A stretch of 48,751 bases of DNA. Source: Clostridia bacterium. GTDB lineage: Bacteria; Bacillota; Clostridia; Christensenellales; Aristaeellaceae. Positions 24,522-46,739 of this stretch are shown here, piece by piece. The stretch is from contig JAFXRG010000061.1 of assembly GCA_017526525.1 (NCBI GenBank), forward strand, positions 1-48,751. The letters run 5' to 3'. The position numbers were made by a program, and so were the translations under genes. The notes under the pieces are model-generated. The model ran no database searches and was not told where the DNA came from. It was given only the letters and a program-made list of their open reading frames with translations. Every line of letters starts with the position of its first letter. Positions within the stretch are counted from its first letter, which is position 1.

Positions 24522-26261
24522 ATGGCGTCCAGCAATATCCGGAAGCCCTTTCTGAAACTCCTGCCCATTCAGATTGCCGCGGTGACGGCAGGATCGGTCA
24601 ATTCGCTGGTTGATACGCTGCTGACAGGCAGGTATATCGGCCCGGAGGCCGTGGCGGGGATCGGTTTTTTCAGCCCCATGCTGACCGTGATCTTTTTGTT
24701 CTATGTTGTGGTGCGGGGCACCACGATCCTCTGCGGACGGGCCATCGGCAGCGGCCGGCGGAACGACGTGATCTCCCTGTTTTCAACGGCCGCGGTGACG
24801 GTGACAGGCTATGGGCTGCTGCTGGGGATCAGCTGTTTCTGCCTCCGGAGTCCGCTGACCCGGCTCCTGGGCGCCGGCGGAATCACGGCGGACTACCTGC
24901 AGGACTATATTGCCGGCTATGCGCCGGGCATTCCGTTCCTCTGCGCGTCGTCCGTGCTGCTGACATACCTGCCCTGCAACAATGAACTGAACAAAAGCTA
25001 CTGCGTCATGGGGTTTATGGTGGCTTCCAATACAGCGCTTGATTTTCTCCTGGTCAGCGTCCTGAAAATGGGCACCTTCGGTATGGGACTGGCCACCTCC
25101 GTCAGTTACACCCTTTCCGCCGTGATCATGATTCCGCTTTTCCTGAAAAAATCGAAGGCATATCATTTTGAATGGAAACGGATCAGTTTCCGGAATATGC
25201 GGGAGACCCTCCGGCTCGGGCTTCCGGAGGTGCTGTTCAACCTCGGGATAACGATCCGGAGCTACCTGGTCAACCTGACGGTGATGCATTCGATCGGGCC
25301 GGCAGGGATCGCGGCGCTGAATGTTGAAAACACGCTGCTGTGCTTTCTCGGCGCGATTCCCCAGGGAACCGGCAACGCGTTTACGCTGATGGCCAGCATT
25401 TATTACGGGGAAAGAGACCGGGACAGCCTGAAGGCGCTGACGGGCACCGCCCTGAAAACGGGGCTGATGCTGAGCAGCGCGGCAACGGTGATCCTGATGG
25501 CCGGCAGCGGCCTGATCAGCAGGCTTTTCTTTCCCGAGGGCGGAGAAACGTGTCTCCTGACGCAGCAGATGTTGCTGTGCTTCGCATCCTGCTTCGTTTT
25601 CAACACGGTGTTCACGATATGGATCCGGCTTTTGCAGATTGAGGAACACATGAAGATCGTGGACCTGATGAACCTGCTGGAACAGCTCTTTATTGCCGCA
25701 ACGGCGATCGGGGGAATGCGGCTGATCGGGGTTACGGCGATCTGGCTGGCCCAGCCGGTGTCCGAGATCCTCTGCCTGCTGGCGATCGGAATCCGGATTG
25801 TGTCCGGCCTGCACCGGTTCCCCCGGACGGCGGAGGAATGGATGAAGCTGCCGAAGGATTTCGGCGCAAAGGCGGAGAACGTGATGGAAGCCACCGCGGA
25901 CAGCCTGGAGGAGGTTGCCCGGCTGTCCAGGGGAATCATGGATTTCCTGGAGAAGCGGGGCGTTGCCGCGAGAACCCGGTCCATCGTTGGCCTGTGCGTG
26001 GAGGAAATGGCCGGCAACGTGATCAGCTACGGCCGGAGGGACGGAAAGGCGCACACAGTGGAAATCCGCGTGGTAGCAGAGGAACAGCTGGTTGTGCGGG
26101 TGCGGGACGACTGCCCGGCCTTCGATCCGAAACAGCGGATTGACCAGTTTGAGCCGGAGGATCCGGCAAAGAACATCGGGATCCGGATGATCGGAAAGCT
26201 GACAAGGAAAATGGATTACCATACGGACGCAGGCGTCAATACCCTGCTGATGGTGATCTGA
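24522..26261 (+). CDS. MATE-family transporter fused to RsbW-like GHKL ATPase domain
   Basis: The 579-residue protein has a twelve-helix MATE efflux core (residues 1-435: SLVDTLLTGRYIGPEAVAGIGF, GMGLATSVSYTLSAVIM, AQPVSEILCLLAIGIRI). Residues 445-579 form a cytoplasmic HATPase_c_2 domain like anti-sigma kinases: VGLCVEEMAGNVISYG is the N box with Glu and Asn, VRVRDDCPAFDP the G1 box, and NIGIRMIGKL the lid/G2 region. Key ATP-site residues are kept. MATE proteins use ion gradients, so the ATPase domain is more likely regulatory, for example a serine kinase or a partner-binding module. A paralogue with the same design lies at 43598. Confidence 0.85.
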   Translation: MASSNIRKPFLKLLPIQIAAVTAGSVNSLVDTLLTGRYIGPEAVAGIGFFSPMLTVIFLFYVVVRGTTILCGRAIGSGRRNDVISLFSTAAVTVTGYGLLLGISCFCLRSPLTRLLGAGGITADYLQDYIAGYAPGIPFLCASSVLLTYLPCNNELNKSYCVMGFMVASNTALDFLLVSVLKMGTFGMGLATSVSYTLSAVIMIPLFLKKSKAYHFEWKRISFRNMRETLRLGLPEVLFNLGITIRSYLVNLTVMHSIGPAGIAALNVENTLLCFLGAIPQGTGNAFTLMASIYYGERDRDSLKALTGTALKTGLMLSSAATVILMAGSGLISRLFFPEGGETCLLTQQMLLCFASCFVFNTVFTIWIRLLQIEEHMKIVDLMNLLEQLFIAATAIGGMRLIGVTAIWLAQPVSEILCLLAIGIRIVSGLHRFPRTAEEWMKLPKDFGAKAENVMEATADSLEEVARLSRGIMDFLEKRGVAARTRSIVGLCVEEMAGNVISYGRRDGKAHTVEIRVVAEEQLVVRVRDDCPAFDPKQRIDQFEPEDPAKNIGIRMIGKLTRKMDYHTDAGVNTLLMVI

Positions 26262-27580: not shown

Positions 27581-29158
27581 ATGCACAGAAAAAAACAGAA
27601 AAGCGAAACCAGACCGGCCCGAAGGGCCGGAAAGGCAGCAGGGATTTTTATCCTGCTTGCGATGATGCTTTTCCTGGTAACGGGATGCTCCGGGAGCGGA
27701 AACAAGGCCATCACCTCCCTGGAACAGCTGTCCGAACCTGGAATCCGGATCGGCGTGCCCAGCACCATTATTGAATACGATATGCTGAAAAAGGATTATC
27801 CGAACGCCACGGTGATTCCCTATACGGATTCCCCGCTGGGCTACCGGGACGTGGCCAACGGCCGGCTGGATGTGTTTGTTTACGCGCGCGAGGAGATGAA
27901 GCTTGCCATTGAGCACGGGACGGAAGGCGTGAAGCTCCTGGACGGAACCTACCATTCCAACGATGCCGCGGTGGGGATTTCCCCGGCAGCAAAAATCCCG
28001 AACCTGCAGGAGAAGATCAACACCTTTATCCGCGAGCTGCGGGCGGACGGCACGCTGGAGGATATGTTCGACCGCTGGGTGCTCCGCAGCGAGTATGAAA
28101 TGCCCGCGATTCCAAAGACGGAGAACCCGAAATACCACCTGCGGGTGGCTACATCCGGCACGGTGATGCCTTATTCCTACTATGTGGGAACACAGCTCAA
28201 CGGGTATGATATCGAACTGGCTTACCGCTTTGCATCCTGGCTGGGCGCGGATGTGGAGTTCAAGGTGATCGATTACGGCGGAATTATTACCGCGGCGGCC
28301 ACCGGCGAGGTGGACTGCATCATGGCCAACCTTTACCGCACCGAGGAAAACAGCAAAACGATTCCTTTTTCCGAAACGCTGTTCGTTGTGGAGATGACCG
28401 GAATGGTGCCGGACAGCGCCAGACCGGCTGCTGCCAAATCCTTCTGGGACTCGATTGCGGAGAGCTTTGAAAAAACCTTTATCCGGGAGAACCGGTGGCA
28501 GCTCCTCCTGGAAGGAATCGGCACAACGCTGCTGATTACGGTGCTGTCCATCCTCCTGGGAACAGCGCTGGGCTTTGGCGTTTTCCTTCTGTGCAGGAAA
28601 GGAAACCCCGTGGCAAACGGCCTGACGCACATTATGATCCGGCTCGTGACGGGACTGCCGACGGTGGTGCTCCTGATGGTTCTCTATTACATCATCTTCG
28701 GGGGACTTTCCATCCCCGGAACGATTGTATCCGTTATCTGCTTTACGATGGTTTTCGGCTCAGCCGTCTTTGCCATGGTGAATACCGGCGTATCCACCGT
28801 GGACAAGGGGCAGGCAGAGGCGGCGTGCTCCCTGGGATTCACGGACCGGAAGGCCTTTTTCGATGTGGTCCTGCCGCAGGCGATGCCGTATATCATGCCG
28901 AATTACAGGGAACAGATTGCCGCGCTGGTCAAAGCCACATCCGTTGTCGGATATGTTACGGTGCAGGACCTGACCAAGATGGGGGACATTATTCGCAGCC
29001 GCACTTTTGAGGCGTTTTTCCCGCTGCTGGTGGTCGCGCTGGTTTATTTCATCCTTGCGGATCTCCTGACTGCCCTTGCACGCAGGCTTGAACTTCACAC
29101 GGATCCGAAGAGAAGAACGAAGGAAAAGATCATGAAGGGAGTGAAGGCCGGTGATTGA
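27581..29158 (+). CDS. Polar amino-acid ABC transporter: lipoprotein binding domains fused to permease
   Basis: From ATG 27581 (GATCGGAGATG upstream) the 525-residue protein has a basic start and lipobox LFLVTGC (Cys 36). There are two SBP_bac_3-like segments (residues 45-180, IRIGVPSTIIEYDM to TLEDMFDRWV, and 190-290, YHLRVATSGTVMPYSYYVG to FSETLFVVEM), then a HisM-type permease (residues 305-510) with the EAA loop EAACSLGFTDRKAFFDVVLPQ. Fused receptor-permease polypeptides are known for glutamine systems of Gram-positives. The two receptor segments look unequal, and the first lacks part of a lobe. The ATPase follows with an eight-base overlap. Confidence 0.88.
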   Translation: MHRKKQKSETRPARRAGKAAGIFILLAMMLFLVTGCSGSGNKAITSLEQLSEPGIRIGVPSTIIEYDMLKKDYPNATVIPYTDSPLGYRDVANGRLDVFVYAREEMKLAIEHGTEGVKLLDGTYHSNDAAVGISPAAKIPNLQEKINTFIRELRADGTLEDMFDRWVLRSEYEMPAIPKTENPKYHLRVATSGTVMPYSYYVGTQLNGYDIELAYRFASWLGADVEFKVIDYGGIITAAATGEVDCIMANLYRTEENSKTIPFSETLFVVEMTGMVPDSARPAAAKSFWDSIAESFEKTFIRENRWQLLLEGIGTTLLITVLSILLGTALGFGVFLLCRKGNPVANGLTHIMIRLVTGLPTVVLLMVLYYIIFGGLSIPGTIVSVICFTMVFGSAVFAMVNTGVSTVDKGQAEAACSLGFTDRKAFFDVVLPQAMPYIMPNYREQIAALVKATSVVGYVTVQDLTKMGDIIRSRTFEAFFPLLVVALVYFILADLLTALARRLELHTDPKRRTKEKIMKGVKAGD

Positions 29159-30242
29159 GCTGATCCACCTGGAAAAGAAATATGAGCAGACCGTTCCCCT
29201 GAAGGACGTGAACGCGGTAATCAACCGGGGAGATGTGATCTCGGTGATCGGCCCCTCCGGCACGGGAAAATCCACATTGCTCCGCTGCATCAACCTGCTG
29301 GAAAAGCCGACGGGCGGGCAGATCCTCCTGGACGGCGAGGATATTACGGATCCGAAATACGATGCCGTAAAAGCCCGGCGGCGGATGGGAATGGTTTTCC
29401 AGAGCTTCAATCTTTTCGGACACCTGACGGTGATTGAAAACCTGATGCTGGCACCGCGGGAGATCCTGAAAAAAACAAAGCAGGAGGCCTATGACACAGG
29501 CATCGCGCTGCTGAAGCGGGTCGGACTGGCCGGCCGGGAATTCCAGTATCCCGACCAGCTGAGCGGCGGACAGAAGCAGCGCATCGCCATCGCGCGGACC
29601 CTGGCAATGGATCCGGATGTGATACTGCTGGATGAGCCGACAAGCGCCCTGGATCCCACCATGGTCGGGGAAGTGCAGGCGGTGATCCGGGACCTGGCGG
29701 GAACCGGAAAAACCATGATGATTGTGACCCATGAAATGAACTTTGCCCGCTCCATCTGCAACCGGGTTTTCTATATGGACCAGGGAGTCATCTTCGAAGA
29801 CGGAACGCCGGAGCAGGTTTTCGACCATCCGCAGAAGGAGCAGACCCGGCGGTTTATTCACAAACTGAAGGTGCTGGAGCTGCTGATTGACAGCCGGGAA
29901 TACGACTTTGCCGGCGCCGGCACTCTCATTGACCAGTACTGCCTGCGCAGCGATATCCTGCTGCGGGTGAAGTACCGCATCCGCCTGGCGTTTGAGGAAC
30001 TGGTGCAGCAGATTTTGCTGCCGGTGCTGGAACGGACCGCCCTCCATGTGACCGTGGAGTATTCGGAAGAGGAGAAAACCGCGACGGTGATCATTGCGTA
30101 CGGCGGCCCGCGTTATGATCCGGCGGAAGGAAAAAACGACCTGGCCTACACGGTGCTGAAACGGTCCATCAGCGAACTGACATACCAGTACACCGAAGGG
30201 GCGGAACTGTCCAATACGATCCGCGCGGTGATCCTGTCCTGA
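29151..30242 (+). CDS. Amino-acid ABC transporter ATPase with C-terminal GHKL-like extension
   Basis: The GTG start overlaps the permease gene. Residues 1-240 are a GlnQ/HisP-type ATPase: Walker A IGPSGTGKSTLL, Q-loop VFQSFNLFG, signature LSGGQKQR, Walker B VILLDEPTSALDP and switch His in VTHEM. GlnQ proteins usually stop there. Residues 243-363 add a domain with the outline of an RsbW-like GHKL fold: RIRLAFEELVQQIL in N-box position (Asn replaced by Gln), ATVIIAYGGPRYDPAEG in G1 position (Asp lost) and NDLAYTVLKRSISELTYQY as the last helix. It is probably a degenerate, ligand- or partner-binding regulatory domain. Confidence 0.85.
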   Translation: MIELIHLEKKYEQTVPLKDVNAVINRGDVISVIGPSGTGKSTLLRCINLLEKPTGGQILLDGEDITDPKYDAVKARRRMGMVFQSFNLFGHLTVIENLMLAPREILKKTKQEAYDTGIALLKRVGLAGREFQYPDQLSGGQKQRIAIARTLAMDPDVILLDEPTSALDPTMVGEVQAVIRDLAGTGKTMMIVTHEMNFARSICNRVFYMDQGVIFEDGTPEQVFDHPQKEQTRRFIHKLKVLELLIDSREYDFAGAGTLIDQYCLRSDILLRVKYRIRLAFEELVQQILLPVLERTALHVTVEYSEEEKTATVIIAYGGPRYDPAEGKNDLAYTVLKRSISELTYQYTEGAELSNTIRAVILS

Positions 30243-41445: not shown

Positions 41446-43557
41446 ATGGATACAGACGTTATTTTGAAAATGTCAGGGGCAACGCTGGGCTACGTTTTGG
41501 TGACGGCGATCATCTGGCTTTTCTGGAAGAAAAATGAAAAACAGGGCCTCCGGGCAAAGATCCTGGTAGGCCTGGTTTACGGCGGGGCCTCCGTGCTGGC
41601 AAACCATTTCGGGATTTCCGTCGGAAGCATCCTGCAGCTGAATGTCCGGGATATCGGCCCGCTGGCGGCAGGACTTTTCTTCAGCCCGCTGAGCGGCATC
41701 ATTGCCGGAACCATCGGCGGAGCCGAACGAATCCTCGCCGGGGAGCTGTGGAAAATCGGACAGTTTACGGAGCTGGCCTGCGGCATGAGCACTTTCCTGG
41801 CCGGCGTGATTGCCGCCCTGCTGAACAGCAAGGCGTTCCAGGGAAAACGGCCGCCCATGACCCAGGCGTTTTTCCTCGGCGCGGTCACGGAAGTTTTCCA
41901 CATGTACGCGGTACTGTTCACCAACCGGAACTCCATGAGCCTGGCTTATTTCGTGGTGCAGACCGCGGCCATTCCCATGATTTTTTTCACGGCCGTCGGC
42001 GTGGCGCTGTGCTCCCTGACCCTCTCGAAGATTTCCGGGGCGCCGTTGAATTCCGGATGGAGAACCCCGACGGAGAGGATTCCCATCACAACGCTTTTCC
42101 AGCGGGCGCTGCTGGCGGTGATCGCGGGATTGTTTGCCTTCAACTTTATCGTTTCGTATAACCTGACCTCCCGGATGATGATCGAAAGCATCGGGACGGA
42201 GCTGACCCTCGCCTCCGCGCTGAAAAAAGATATCTACAGCAGAACCGGGAATATTGAATACCTGAAACGGAATGTGGAGGAAGAGACCACCACCGACTTT
42301 ATTTTCCTGCTGGTGAACAGGAAAACGAAAGAAGTCAGCATGAATTACTACGCCGAGCTGGACGAGAACCTCCGGCTGGACAAAGCCATGGCCCTGGCGG
42401 AGGAGCACGCGGACCAGGACGCTTTCCGGCTGGACGGCGAAGTGATCAACGGCCTGGATGCTATGTGCCTGGTGACTTCCATCGGCGAAGATTATTACCT
42501 GTTTTCCCTGCGGGAAACCTTCTCCGCCACCAACGCCAGGGACCGCCAGCTGTATGAAAGCACGCTGTCGGACATCCTGATGTTTGCGGTGCTGTACCTG
42601 CTGGTGGCCATGTTGTCGGAACGGGTGGTGGTCCGGAACCTGCACCGGGTGAACGAATCCCTGCACCGGATTACAAACGGGAACCTGAACGAAACCGTAT
42701 GGGTGCATACCAGCCGGGAATTCACAGACCTGAGCAATGACATCAATAAAACCGTGACGGCCCTGCGGGGCTATATCAGCGCGGCGGAGCAGCGAATGAA
42801 GGATGAGCTGAAAATGGCCGCCGCCATCCAGGAAGCTGCGCTGCCGAAGAATTTCAACCTGCCCACCGGGGATGTTGAGCTGTACGCGCTGATGACGCCT
42901 GCGAGGGAAGTGGGCGGCGACTTTTATGATTTCTTCTTCATCGGCATGGATCAGCTGTGCCTCGTGATTGCCGACGTGAGCGGAAAGGGCATACCGGCTT
43001 CCCTGTTCATGATGCAGGCCAAAACCGCCATCAAGAACAACGCCCGGAGGGGCAGTAATCCCGCGGAGCTGCTGGAGAAGGTGAACGGAATTCTCTGTGA
43101 AGGCAACAGCGCGGAAATGTTCGTTACCGTATGGATCGGCATCCTGAACCTGAAAACCGGGCTGATGCAGTGCGCCAACGCGGGACACGAATTCCCGGTG
43201 CTGATGCGCTGCGGCGGGGATTACCAGCTTGTGAAGGACAAGCATGGCCTGGTGCTGGCGGCAATGGAGGGAATCCACCAGAAGAGCTACGATGTTCAGC
43301 TTTATCCGGGAGACCAGCTGTTTGTTTACACGGACGGCGTGCCGGAAGCCATTAACGAAAAGGAAGAGGCATACGGAACCGGCCGGCTGGTGGAGCGGCT
43401 GAACCGGATGAAGAACTTTGAGCAGCAGCGGATCCTGGAGGATGTGCTGCAGGACATCCGGAACTTTGCCGGAACCGCGGAGCAGTTTGATGATATTACC
43501 ATGATGGGGATTGCTTACCATCCCCAGGAAAACATCCCACCGGTGCAGAATTCGTAA
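41446..43557 (+). CDS. Membrane SpoIIE-type PP2C phosphatase with LytS-like 5TM sensor and HAMP
   Basis: The 703-residue protein begins with a 5TMR-LYT membrane sensor (residues 1-190) bearing the signature NVRDIGPLAAGLFFSPLSG, then IAGTIGGAERIL. Another helix, an extracellular segment (about 245-385), a second helix and a HAMP-like linker follow. The C-terminal SpoIIE/RsbU domain (475-690) has REVGGDFYDFFFI, CLVIADVSGKGIPASLFM and FVYTDGVPEA, the metal-binding Asp residues of PP2C. It should dephosphorylate a STAS anti-anti-sigma protein in a partner-switching pathway. The next gene encodes a transporter with an RsbW-like domain, a logical partner. Confidence 0.9.
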   Translation: MDTDVILKMSGATLGYVLVTAIIWLFWKKNEKQGLRAKILVGLVYGGASVLANHFGISVGSILQLNVRDIGPLAAGLFFSPLSGIIAGTIGGAERILAGELWKIGQFTELACGMSTFLAGVIAALLNSKAFQGKRPPMTQAFFLGAVTEVFHMYAVLFTNRNSMSLAYFVVQTAAIPMIFFTAVGVALCSLTLSKISGAPLNSGWRTPTERIPITTLFQRALLAVIAGLFAFNFIVSYNLTSRMMIESIGTELTLASALKKDIYSRTGNIEYLKRNVEEETTTDFIFLLVNRKTKEVSMNYYAELDENLRLDKAMALAEEHADQDAFRLDGEVINGLDAMCLVTSIGEDYYLFSLRETFSATNARDRQLYESTLSDILMFAVLYLLVAMLSERVVVRNLHRVNESLHRITNGNLNETVWVHTSREFTDLSNDINKTVTALRGYISAAEQRMKDELKMAAAIQEAALPKNFNLPTGDVELYALMTPAREVGGDFYDFFFIGMDQLCLVIADVSGKGIPASLFMMQAKTAIKNNARRGSNPAELLEKVNGILCEGNSAEMFVTVWIGILNLKTGLMQCANAGHEFPVLMRCGGDYQLVKDKHGLVLAAMEGIHQKSYDVQLYPGDQLFVYTDGVPEAINEKEEAYGTGRLVERLNRMKNFEQQRILEDVLQDIRNFAGTAEQFDDITMMGIAYHPQENIPPVQNS

Positions 43558-43597: not shown

Positions 43598-45346
43598 ATG
43601 ATTCGCAAACTTGTTCGGCAGATGTTGACAGCCCAGGTGTTTTCCGCACTGACGGTATCCCTTTGTCTGCTGATTGACAGCATTATGATCGGGCGGTTCC
43701 TGGGCGAACAGGCCATTGCCGCCTACGGACTGGCCAATCCGCTGCTGCTGGCCATCGGCGCCATCGGAAGCCTGCTGGCGGCAGGCATCCAGGTGACCTG
43801 CAGCCGTTCCCTGGGCCGCGGATCCCAGGAGGAAACCAACGCCGGTTATTCATCCGCGATTATGGTGGCGGGCATCATTTCCGGGGTTTTCATGGTGGCG
43901 GCCATTCTGTTCCGTTCCTTCTTTGCCAAAGCGATGGGAGCGGGGAGCAGCGGCGAGCTGTTCAACCAGACCCGGGATTACATTGCGGGCTTCAGCATCG
44001 GGGCACCGGGATCCATGGGAGCGCTGGTGCTGGTTCCTTTCCTGCAGATGGCCGGGCAGAGCAACCTGCTGATTGCGGCAGTGCTGACCATGACGATCGC
44101 GGATATCGGCCTGGACCTGCTGAATGTGCTGGTGTTTAACGGCGGAATGTTCGGCATGGGCCTGGCTTCCGCGATCAGCTACTACGCGGCCATGGTTGTC
44201 AGCGCCTTCTATTTTCTCTCCAAAAAATGCGTTTTCCGTTTTACCCGGAAGGGCGTGACCGTGAAAAAAATGCTGGAACTGTTCAAAAGCGGCGTTCCGG
44301 CGGGCTTCAGCATGGCGGCGGCCATGGTCCTGGTGTTTGTGATGAACCATATCCTGATGAGCACCGGCGGGGAAGACGCCCTGTCGGCGTTCACGGTGAT
44401 GATGTCCCTGGGCAACGCGGCCCAGTGCATCAATACCGGCACCGGCGGCGTATCGCTGACCCTGTCGGGAATGTTTGTGCAGGAAGAGGACCGCAATTCC
44501 CTGAAGGAGCTGCTGTGGCTCCTGTTCCGGTACGCGGTGATCCTGGGACTGGGAATGGGCCTGGTGCTGCTGGTTTTCGCGGGACCCCTGGTAGGCCTGT
44601 TTATTACGGAGCCCGGAAAAGCCCGGGATATGGCGGCACTGGCACTCCGGCTGTACGCAACGGGCCTGATTCCCTGCTGCGCCTGCAGCGCGCTGAAAAA
44701 CTGCTACCAGGCGGAGGGAAAGATTGCACTGACGGAGATCCTTCATTTAACGGAAGGCGCGCTGCTGCCTGCCGTTGCGGGATTTATCCTGAGCCGGATC
44801 TGGGGAACCACCGGCGCGTGGCTGTACTTTGTGGCCGGCGAATTGCTGGCGGTTCTTGCGATCTGCCTGCTGATCCGGCATAAGACCGGACGGAAGCCCT
44901 GGGACGGGGATGCCTTCCTGATGCTGGACGAGGATTTCGGCGTCGGACCGGACGAAATGATGGAAGCGGAGATCCGCTCCATTCAGGACGTGACCGCCGT
45001 GGCCGAACAGGCGCAGCAGTTCTGCATGCGCCACAGCCGGGACAACCGCATGGGCAACCATATTGCGCTGTGTATTGAGGAAATGGCCAGCAATACCGTT
45101 CAGCACGGCTTCTCCAAGGACGCGGAGAACCACCTGTCCGTGAGGATTCTGCACAAGCCGGATGCATGGGTGCTCCGTTTCCGGGATGACTGCAGGGCCT
45201 TTGACCCGGTGCATTACATTCCCGCCAACGGGAAGAAAGCCGTGGGGATTCACCTGGTGCTGGCCCTGGCCAGTGACGCGCGCTATACCTATTCCATGAA
45301 CATGAACAACCTGTCGCTGAGGCTGCCCGAAACGGACAAAAAATAA
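43598..45346 (+). CDS. MATE-family transporter fused to RsbW-like GHKL ATPase domain (second copy)
   Basis: ATG 43598 follows AAAGGAGAGAAAGAG. The 582-residue protein has a MATE core (residues 1-435: LCLLIDSIMIGRFLGEQAIAAYGLA, GMGLASAISYYAAMVVSAF, LTEGALLPAVAGFILSRI) and a cytoplasmic GHKL domain (450-582) with IALCIEEMASNTVQHGF (N box), LRFRDDCRAFDP (G1) and KAVGIHLVLALA (lid region). It has the same architecture as the protein at 24522, though clearly diverged. It starts 40 bases after the SpoIIE phosphatase and so is probably co-transcribed. I propose that export or signalling is governed by partner switching. Confidence 0.85.
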   Translation: MIRKLVRQMLTAQVFSALTVSLCLLIDSIMIGRFLGEQAIAAYGLANPLLLAIGAIGSLLAAGIQVTCSRSLGRGSQEETNAGYSSAIMVAGIISGVFMVAAILFRSFFAKAMGAGSSGELFNQTRDYIAGFSIGAPGSMGALVLVPFLQMAGQSNLLIAAVLTMTIADIGLDLLNVLVFNGGMFGMGLASAISYYAAMVVSAFYFLSKKCVFRFTRKGVTVKKMLELFKSGVPAGFSMAAAMVLVFVMNHILMSTGGEDALSAFTVMMSLGNAAQCINTGTGGVSLTLSGMFVQEEDRNSLKELLWLLFRYAVILGLGMGLVLLVFAGPLVGLFITEPGKARDMAALALRLYATGLIPCCACSALKNCYQAEGKIALTEILHLTEGALLPAVAGFILSRIWGTTGAWLYFVAGELLAVLAICLLIRHKTGRKPWDGDAFLMLDEDFGVGPDEMMEAEIRSIQDVTAVAEQAQQFCMRHSRDNRMGNHIALCIEEMASNTVQHGFSKDAENHLSVRILHKPDAWVLRFRDDCRAFDPVHYIPANGKKAVGIHLVLALASDARYTYSMNMNNLSLRLPETDKK

Positions 45347-45402: not shown

Positions 45403-45891
45403 TCAGACCCGGTCCTGGAGCGCCTTGCGCAGCATCAGGAGGGCATTCTGATGGCGAAGCTTCACGGCGCCGTAGCTCAGGCCCATAAGCTCGGCAATTT
45501 CCGTCAGGGGTTTTCCGTCGTAATACCGCAGGACGATGATGTCCATCATCTGCTGGGGAAGGGAACGAAGGGCAGAGGCCAGCTCGGACAGGGACTCGGT
45601 ATTCAGCAGGTCCTCATCCAGCTCGGTTCCGTCCGTAAGGTTTTCGTCCAGCTCCGAGGAGGGTTTTGTACGCCGGAAATGGTCGATGACGATATTACGG
45701 GTGATGGTAAAAATCCAGGTATTCAGGGATGCTTTTTCCGGATCAAAATCATCCAGCTTTTTGATGATCCTTTCGAAGACCTCTGAAAAAAGGTCTTCCG
45801 CATCCGCTTTGCCGCGGATCCGGGCCCGGATATACCCCATGATTTTGCCGCCGTATTCCGCATAGATCTGGTCGACGTTAACGGTTGCCAT
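45403..45891 (-). CDS. ECF-type RNA polymerase sigma factor
   Basis: The 162-residue protein has sigma region 2 (residues 5-75, with DAEDLFSEVFERIIKKLDDFD and LNTWIFTITRNIVIDHFRR) and region 4 (105-160, LPQQMMDIIVLRYYDGKPLTEIAELMGLSYGAVKLRHQNALLMLRK). Regions 1 and 3 are absent, as in ECF factors. It should direct polymerase to a specific promoter set. No classical zinc anti-sigma gene follows. Instead the gene overlaps by 14 bases a small upstream gene on the same strand, and the convergent neighbour carries an RsbW-like domain. Confidence 0.9.
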   Translation of the reverse strand: MATVNVDQIYAEYGGKIMGYIRARIRGKADAEDLFSEVFERIIKKLDDFDPEKASLNTWIFTITRNIVIDHFRRTKPSSELDENLTDGTELDEDLLNTESLSELASALRSLPQQMMDIIVLRYYDGKPLTEIAELMGLSYGAVKLRHQNALLMLRKALQDRV

Positions 45892-46081
45892 CTTCTTTGC
45901 TTTCCTGTTCCTTCTTCAGAAGGTACATATTCGATATTCCGGCAGCGTTGACGTATTCCAGTTCATCCAGATCCAGCTCCCGGACCGAGTAGCGGGAATG
46001 GACGGAATCGATGACGCTCTGAAGCGCGGAATTGCCCTCGAATTTCTGATAATCGAAGAGCTTTTTCAGGGACTGCTCCAT
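45878..46081 (-). CDS. Small leader-like protein overlapping the sigma-factor gene
   Basis: Several ATGs follow AAAGGAGTGATG; I favour 46081, the third of a tandem, for its eight-base spacing. The product, about 67 residues, is helical (MEQSLKKLFDYQKFEGNSAL), then reads VRELDLDELEYVNAAGISNM and a charged tail. LDLDELEYVNAAG looks like the end of a RiPP leader (compare LSLEELENAAGG at 23830) and is also reminiscent of the STAS core EY.[DN][SA]AG[LI]. It could be a sigma-factor partner. It is translationally coupled to the sigma gene by a 14-base overlap. Confidence 0.6.
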   Translation of the reverse strand: MEQSLKKLFDYQKFEGNSALQSVIDSVHSRYSVRELDLDELEYVNAAGISNMYLLKKEQESKEDGNR

Positions 46082-46113
46082 CATCATCACTCCTTTCATC
46101 TTTCTTCCAGATC

Positions 46114-46277: not shown

Positions 46278-46739
46278 ATGGAAAATAATCAGCTGTTCCG
46301 GCAGAAATCCCTGGATCGTATTTCCTCCCCGGAGGAGATGCACGACTATATGCGGGTAACCAGTCCCCGGCTCTGGATGATCCTGACGGCGATTGTTACG
46401 CTGCTGGCCGGTTTTATTGCCTTTGCTTCCACCACCCGGATGGAGAACACGATTCCCATCAAGGTGACGGTGGAGTCCTACGGTGAGGGAGCCGAAAGCA
46501 GGACGATTGTTTCCGCCAACCTTCCCCTCAGCCAGAAGGCCAGCATCGAAACCGGCATGGAGGTGCGGATCGGGAATGAAAAAGGCAAGGTTCTCCTGAT
46601 CAGCGTGATTGCGGAGAGTGAAAACCTGTACGTTCTGTTTGAAATGGAGCACGAGGTCATTCCGCTTCCGGAAGGCGAACATGACGCCGTGCTGGTGCTG
46701 GAATCCACCACCCCCATCAGTTTTCTCTGGAACAAATAA
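46278..46739 (+). CDS. NHLM/NHLP-type bacteriocin system secretion (HlyD-like) protein, short form
   Basis: ATG 46278 follows GAGAGGAGTAAAT. The 153-residue protein begins with the NHLM secretion-protein signature FRQKSLDRISSPEEMHDYMR and VTSPRLWMILTA, then one membrane helix and a beta-rich lipoyl/barrel-like part (EGAESRTIVSANLPLSQKASIETGMEVRIGNEKGKVLLIS). Full-length members have a long coiled coil between two half-domains. Here the coil is absent, so this is a reduced adaptor. It should couple the ABC exporter, encoded 30 bases downstream, to substrate passage across the envelope. Confidence 0.85.
   Translation: MENNQLFRQKSLDRISSPEEMHDYMRVTSPRLWMILTAIVTLLAGFIAFASTTRMENTIPIKVTVESYGEGAESRTIVSANLPLSQKASIETGMEVRIGNEKGKVLLISVIAESENLYVLFEMEHEVIPLPEGEHDAVLVLESTTPISFLWNK

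Follow-up and report, generated by a model that had tools for sequence, protein, structure and literature searches.

Here we present a MATE transporter with a GHKL domain built into its C-terminal end, encoded on contig JAFXRG010000061.1 of the Clostridia bacterium assembly GCA_017526525.1 (contig C24 below), whose 48,751 nucleotides form the window that was analysed. The protein is the product of one open reading frame (ORF) on the + strand (43598..45346, with its ATG at 43598 and its stop at 45346), and its 582 amino acids carry on the same chain both MatE (74 bits, in two stretches) and HATPase_c_2 (33 bits against a cut-off of 27.4, residues 464-574), each above its Pfam cut-off. The transporter part takes up residues 1-449 (43598..44944, +) and the GHKL tail residues 454-577 (44957..45328, +), the tail being supported by Pfam, conservation, the predicted order of structural elements, and a 96.9% profile match to standalone GHKL proteins. 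Within the tail lie the N box IEEMASNTVQHGF (residues 493-505), the G1 box DDCRAFDP (530-537), and the G2 glycine at residue 550. The original prediction, a first reading of this DNA, had placed a MATE core and an RsbW/SpoIIAB-like GHKL domain with these N and G1 boxes in one polypeptide, and the single ORF with its two Pfam domains bears this out.

The architecture extends well beyond the window. When contigs were scanned with three aligned fusions as the query, 274 stretches gave a match; 211 of them encode a relative, and the best 80 of these 211 were used for the counts of loci, with genes called as longest ORFs rather than taken from annotations. By title, the relatives kept are mainly Clostridia from ruminant guts, together with four Spirochaetes or Spirochaetales and one Synergistes. 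A single stop-free ORF spans both domains in 75 of the 80 loci, the 75 that were checked, the other five being L103, L125, L132 and L136 (run off the contig end), and L133. A frameshift or assembly artefact was considered as the source of the fusion and is ruled out by these single ORFs, so that the fusion is confirmed as real. The matching stretch in L133 is 1,727 bases long, a length not divisible by three, and this copy may therefore be frameshifted. One of our alignments (A3) comprises 73 of the 80 loci plus two window proteins, leaving out L103, L125, L132, L133 and L136 (partial, late-starting or possibly frameshifted) as well as L095 and L109; another (A5) comprises 14 of the 80 plus the window.

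The ATP-site residues of the tail are intact except for the first glycine of the G2 box. Across all 80 relatives and the window protein (81 rows, partial rows included), the N-box Glu, the N-box Asn, and the G1 Asp are invariant in the 80-81 rows that cover them, Gly550 of the G2 box is kept in 79 of 79, and 46 of 79 rows have Ala in column 548. An AlphaFold2 model built with 75 sequences (mean pLDDT 87, pTM 0.85) places a helical MATE body first and then, at residues 454-577, the succession strand-helix-helix-strand-strand, helix-strand-strand. This is the GHKL element order, so the outcome that had been named beforehand as speaking against the domain, a C-terminal 130 residues devoid of a GHKL fold, did not occur. 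With RsbW and SpoIIAB the tail shares the HATPase_c_2 family, the N-box Glu and Asn, and the G1 Asp, and its N box aligns to that of RsbW; it differs from them in being fused to a transporter and in its altered G1 and G2 boxes (DDCxAFDP, first G2 Gly missing). We infer that the tail would bind ATP and transfer phosphate.

In the membrane part, the N-lobe acidic residue, Asp27, is invariant in 78 of 78 rows and aligns with the Asp of BH2163, and we take it to be the cation-coupling residue of a MATE transporter. A structure search with the whole fusion returned MATE proteins and related flippases only, with matches that cover residues 1-449 and so say nothing about the tail. By its MatE domain, its MATE fold and its conserved Asp27, the protein belongs among the MATE proteins, as a putative transporter.

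Near some of the fusion genes lie candidate components of a serine partner-switching circuit. In the window, a 703-residue membrane phosphatase of the 5TM-LYT/HAMP/SpoIIE-type PP2C kind (41446..43557, +; SpoIIE 151 bits, 5TM-5TMR_LYT 88 bits, HAMP below cut-off) ends at 43557, 40 bases ahead of the fusion gene, just as had been noted at the outset. The closest relative (L057) repeats this pair 12 bases apart and with the same LYT sensor, and five of the 80 loci (L057, L068, L087, L093, L094) have a SpoIIE gene no more than 3 kb from the fusion. The profiles for these neighbour searches were made from the SpoIIE, STAS, and GHKL proteins of the window's own genome. STAS genes occur in 18 of the 80 loci, and in 17 of the 18 the STAS gene is adjoined by a gene for a protein of about 200 residues, which we call X; the remaining locus, L109, has a contig that ends 485 bases past STAS. 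X stands without STAS in L089 (at a contig start) and L106, and the motif pattern for X missed one STAS (L092). Within 3 kb of the fusion we find STAS in 17 of 80 loci, X in 18, and either of them in 19, on the opposite strand in two of the 19 (L092, L106); where both flanks reach 3 kb or more, STAS or X is this close in 13 of 46 loci. The number of STAS genes falls with distance from the fusion, with 10, 1, and 1 for consecutive intervals of 2 kb (50, 43, and 35 loci), and the gene order of the fusion with STAS, X, and SpoIIE is tight and sometimes overlapping. Standalone GHKL proteins, counting SpoIIE-GHKL fusions, stand within 3 kb in nine of the 80 loci. STAS, GHKL, and SpoIIE genes come together in L079, L087, and L093, and in L093 the fusion is the sole GHKL protein found. 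As for X itself, a predicted model has a fold match to the RsbW-type fold, and X may be a degenerate RsbW-fold protein. Pfam and NCBIfam offered poor matches only, and an identity from these databases was rejected (Cas_Cas1 at E 0.05-0.07; an anhMurNAc kinase model at E 0.008, with 15 against 436 bits). An alignment of X (A4) draws on 15 of the 19 loci that have it.

The same association is seen across genomes. We searched 150 genomes of the same family with the tail profile, X, and ABC1, the peptidase/permease/ATPase of NHLM export, a truncated gene for which ends the window. The tail profile is found in 49 of 150 genomes and X in 56, with both in 44 (Fisher 3e-21). At stricter scores 30 genomes have both, 7 the tail only, and 11 X only (p 5e-16); collapsed to 50 genera, 15 have both, 1 the tail only, and 3 X only (p 5e-9). 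Of 75 tail hits, 12 share their contig with an X no more than 10 kb away. NHLM ABC1 is present in 58 of 150 genomes, sharing 33 with the tail (p 8e-7) and 40 with X (p 3e-10), and the link of tail to X persists both where NHLM is present (31 of 33 against 9 of 25) and where it is absent (13 of 16 against 3 of 76), the odds ratio of the tail being 65 with X and 6 with NHLM. The genomic linkage of the fusion to STAS and X is well supported.

Our preferred reading, which we hold with middling confidence, is that the fusion belongs to a STAS partner-switching circuit, as a component tethered to the membrane. A cation-driven MATE transporter would carry a cytoplasmic serine kinase of the RsbW/SpoIIAB type as its tail; this tail would bind, and probably phosphorylate, a small STAS protein; the SpoIIE-type phosphatase would undo the phosphorylation; and X, encoded beside STAS, may compete for the same STAS protein. 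Transport state and STAS state would then be linked on one polypeptide, a “transceptor” that works through serine partner switching and not through a histidine kinase. Any coupling between transport and kinase would be of either direction with about equal likelihood: the transporter could act as a sensor feeding the switch, or STAS could gate transport.

Several observations weigh against the STAS-circuit reading. The window protein lacks the GxG pattern of the G2 box (AVGIHLV, with the first Gly missing), and against solved RsbW and SpoIIAB the tail gives only weak sequence matches (E 0.51 with the single sequence, 0.056 with the profile). The N-box Asn has been lost in some paralogues of the same genome, to Val in L009 and to Tyr in L054, so that not every paralogue can be a classical kinase. 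In the window, SpoIIE alone adjoins the fusion, with no STAS as a direct neighbour, and neither STAS nor X lies within 3 kb in 61 of the 80 loci, a share that is 33 of 46 where both flanks reach 3 kb. The fold assignment of X rests on a model with pLDDT 67, and profile comparison of X with GHKL proteins gave no significant match (1.3%). Finally, kinship is handled in the co-occurrence p values only by the collapse to genera, and the tail hits were counted by the tail profile with their MATE domain unconfirmed, their open frames being mostly 550-700 amino acids and some 248-418.

In an alternative that we consider unlikely, the tail is an intramolecular nucleotide sensor that gates the pump when ATP is bound. 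It would act on no protein substrate, and STAS and X would be linked to it through shared regulation only. The 61 loci that lack both genes nearby, the conserved ATP-site residues, and the paralogues that keep a tail after losing the N-box Asn all agree with such a sensor; the strong co-occurrence with X, even in genomes without NHLM ABC1, and the close packing of its gene with those for STAS, X, and SpoIIE, which in places overlap, do not.

The right-hand part of the window brings in the NHLM export genes. A short protein that is possibly NHLM HlyD-like (46278..46739, +; a weak TIGR03794 match of 20.8 bits against a cut-off of 156.2) is followed by the NHLM ABC1 gene, which is cut by the contig end (46752..48751, +; TIGR03796 with 808 bits over 647 of 710 positions, below the 853 cut-off). 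Another contig of the genome, C42 (L144), opens with the missing C-terminal end of such an ABC1 gene and continues with NHLM ABC2 (730 bits, above cut-off), a gene we presume to be PreA-like, and then X and STAS on the other strand. Since none of the remaining three ABC1 genes in the genome is truncated, C42 is most likely the continuation of C24 and probably adjoins the right end of the window; a script found no exact overlap of at least 6 bases between the two contig ends, in a genome that is 64% complete. If the join holds, each of the four NHLM ABC1 loci (on C53, C5, C43, and C24-C42) has a STAS gene no further than about 7 kb away, and of the five STAS genes in the genome, four are that close to NHLM export genes. 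On contig C29 a STAS-SpoIIE-GHKL module stands beside a gene that by eye, from no search, is radical-SAM-like, and not beside NHLM genes. The loci concerned, C29 included, are L010, L014, L015, L016, and L144. NHLM homologues and the HlyD-like gene are found in five related loci (L064, L068, L077, L094, L127).

These neighbours raise the improbable alternative that the fusion plays an accessory part in NHLM peptide export, as a MATE pump that exports the peptide or gives immunity to it, and that control of whole export clusters falls to the partner-switching genes. The NHLM genes that follow the fusion in the window and recur in those five loci, the STAS genes near every ABC1 locus if the contigs join, and the 33 genomes with both tail profile and ABC1 speak for it. 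Against it stand the 16 of 49 tail-profile genomes without NHLM ABC1 at the threshold used, the far larger odds ratio with X, and the persistence of the X link where NHLM is absent.

Between the fusion and the export genes lies an ECF sigma factor gene (45403..45891, -; Sigma70_r2 and r4, TIGR02937 110 bits), which does converge on the fusion gene as first described. Ahead of it is an ORF for a small protein of 73 amino acids (45878..46099, -) with a ELDLDELEYVNAAG motif that is leader-like by eye; the “67-residue protein” noted earlier corresponds to this ORF, read from an inner Met. The 73-residue protein has no Pfam match to E 0.1 and no NCBIfam match to E 0.01. Members of its family share the core LFD.Q....N..LQ.VIDSVH.RY ... 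AAG and end in a short stretch that varies; by eye they are like a leader peptide for the adjacent C39 exporter. Homologues of the ECF factor above 40 bits are found in only four of the 80 loci (L064, L068, L094, L127), in flanks of up to 8 kb where short contigs limit the count, and each adjoins a homologue of the 73-residue protein. The original prediction had offered, as an example of coupling, that the transport state sets the release of a sigma factor. In that model the tail would be an anti-sigma factor for this ECF factor, and the convergent genes in the window, L068, and L094, along with the shared cluster in L064 and L127, suit the idea. Classical RsbW and SpoIIAB partners, however, are of the sigma-B/F type and not ECF, and four loci with the ECF factor compare with 19 that have STAS or X close by. 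The tie between transporter and partner switching is supported by gene neighbourhoods and co-occurrence, and its sigma-release part is not supported: we find this model very improbable, and the ECF factor was set aside as an unlikely general partner of the fusion.

The genome holds more than one such protein. A second fusion of 579 amino acids lies in the window itself (24522..26261, +; MatE 87 bits, HATPase_c_2 66 bits), absent from the earlier account of this locus, and with L011, L009, and L053 it brings the recognisable fusions to five. HATPase_c_2 exceeds its Pfam cut-off in four of them; L053 falls below (20.6 bits), yet profile comparison gives 96.9%. L054 is a sixth by eye from the alignment only, with a tail missed by Pfam and by profiles (2.2% and 9.2%). 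In a tree of the genome's 17 MATE proteins, the six fusions, L054 included, share one branch with L035 (support 99/99), a 605-residue MATE protein (contig C61, 1366-3183, +) with a C-terminal extension in which no GHKL domain is recognised. Owing to L035, the fusion label needs two changes on this tree, and one change suffices in only 3% of bootstrap trees; one old fusion followed by decay in L035 and L054 is plausible. That the tail is a functionless, decaying relic of an old fusion, as the tail of L054, missed by Pfam and profiles, and the lost N-box Asn of L009 might hint, is the least credible account of all, given key ATP-site residues that are invariant in the window protein's own group down to rows of 43% identity.

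Three further genes deserve mention. The gene after the L035 MATE gene is nonribosomal peptide synthetase-like by eye, from no search. In L009 (3030-6926, -) a gene for a SpoIIE-GHKL fusion comes 21 bases after the MATE-GHKL gene. An amino-acid-type ABC ATPase in the window (29151-30242, +) carries a C-terminal stretch of about 120 residues that is GHKL-like by eye (IRLAFEELVQ..., GGPRYDP), in which Pfam finds no HATPase and profile comparison gives 71% to standalone GHKL proteins and 17% to fusion tails.

A transporter fused to a kinase is a known principle, and it is the class of kinase that is unusual here. The phosphatase-kinase switch SiaA/SiaB/SiaC of Pseudomonas differs from the window-type loci, which have STAS proteins, and we know of no fused transporter in that system. 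In principle CbrA is the nearest known analogue: according to excerpts of PMC7096432 and PMC13022988, the SLC5-STAC histidine kinases of the CbrA/CrbS type likewise join a transporter and a GHKL-type kinase in one membrane protein. Those proteins have an SLC5 fold, and their kinase is a two-component histidine kinase with a response regulator as its target, whereas the window fusion has a MATE fold and an RsbW-type tail linked to STAS, and Pfam to E 0.1 finds in it no SLC5, STAC, or histidine-kinase dimerisation domain. The CbrA kinase is dispensable for uptake, and histidine had no significant effect on the activities, as far as the PMC7096432 excerpt goes, which calls for caution in assuming tight coupling; even for CbrA, the studied case, the coupling of transport to signalling is still open by the excerpt of PMC13022988. 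The SulP/SLC26 transporters, as portrayed in part of PMC8256260, carry the STAS half of a STAS-kinase pair, and the window fusion is their mirror image, with the kinase-like half on a MATE transporter. The NHLP/NHLM system is shared through the truncated ABC1 gene in the window and ABC2 on C42; by term search, STAS, sigma factor, and phosphatase do not occur in the main text of its 2010 description (PMC2887384). Among the open-access papers listed, judged by titles and the starts of abstracts, no description of a MATE-RsbW-type fusion was found.

We also entertain, as a tentative and rather doubtful proposal, a new class of transceptor: a MATE branch, with one to several members per genome, whose built-in RsbW-type kinase would load or unload STAS against an X decoy, such that substrate movement sets a switch that in many of these genomes may govern NHLM export. 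Partner switching is commonly depicted as a circuit of soluble proteins with a separate sensor phosphatase as its input, and a transporter that carries the kinase half would place the input or the output of the circuit inside a pump. As the MATE-GHKL family is large, includes some members that are intact and others that look dead, and has candidate partners in STAS, X, and SpoIIE, the question is directly testable.
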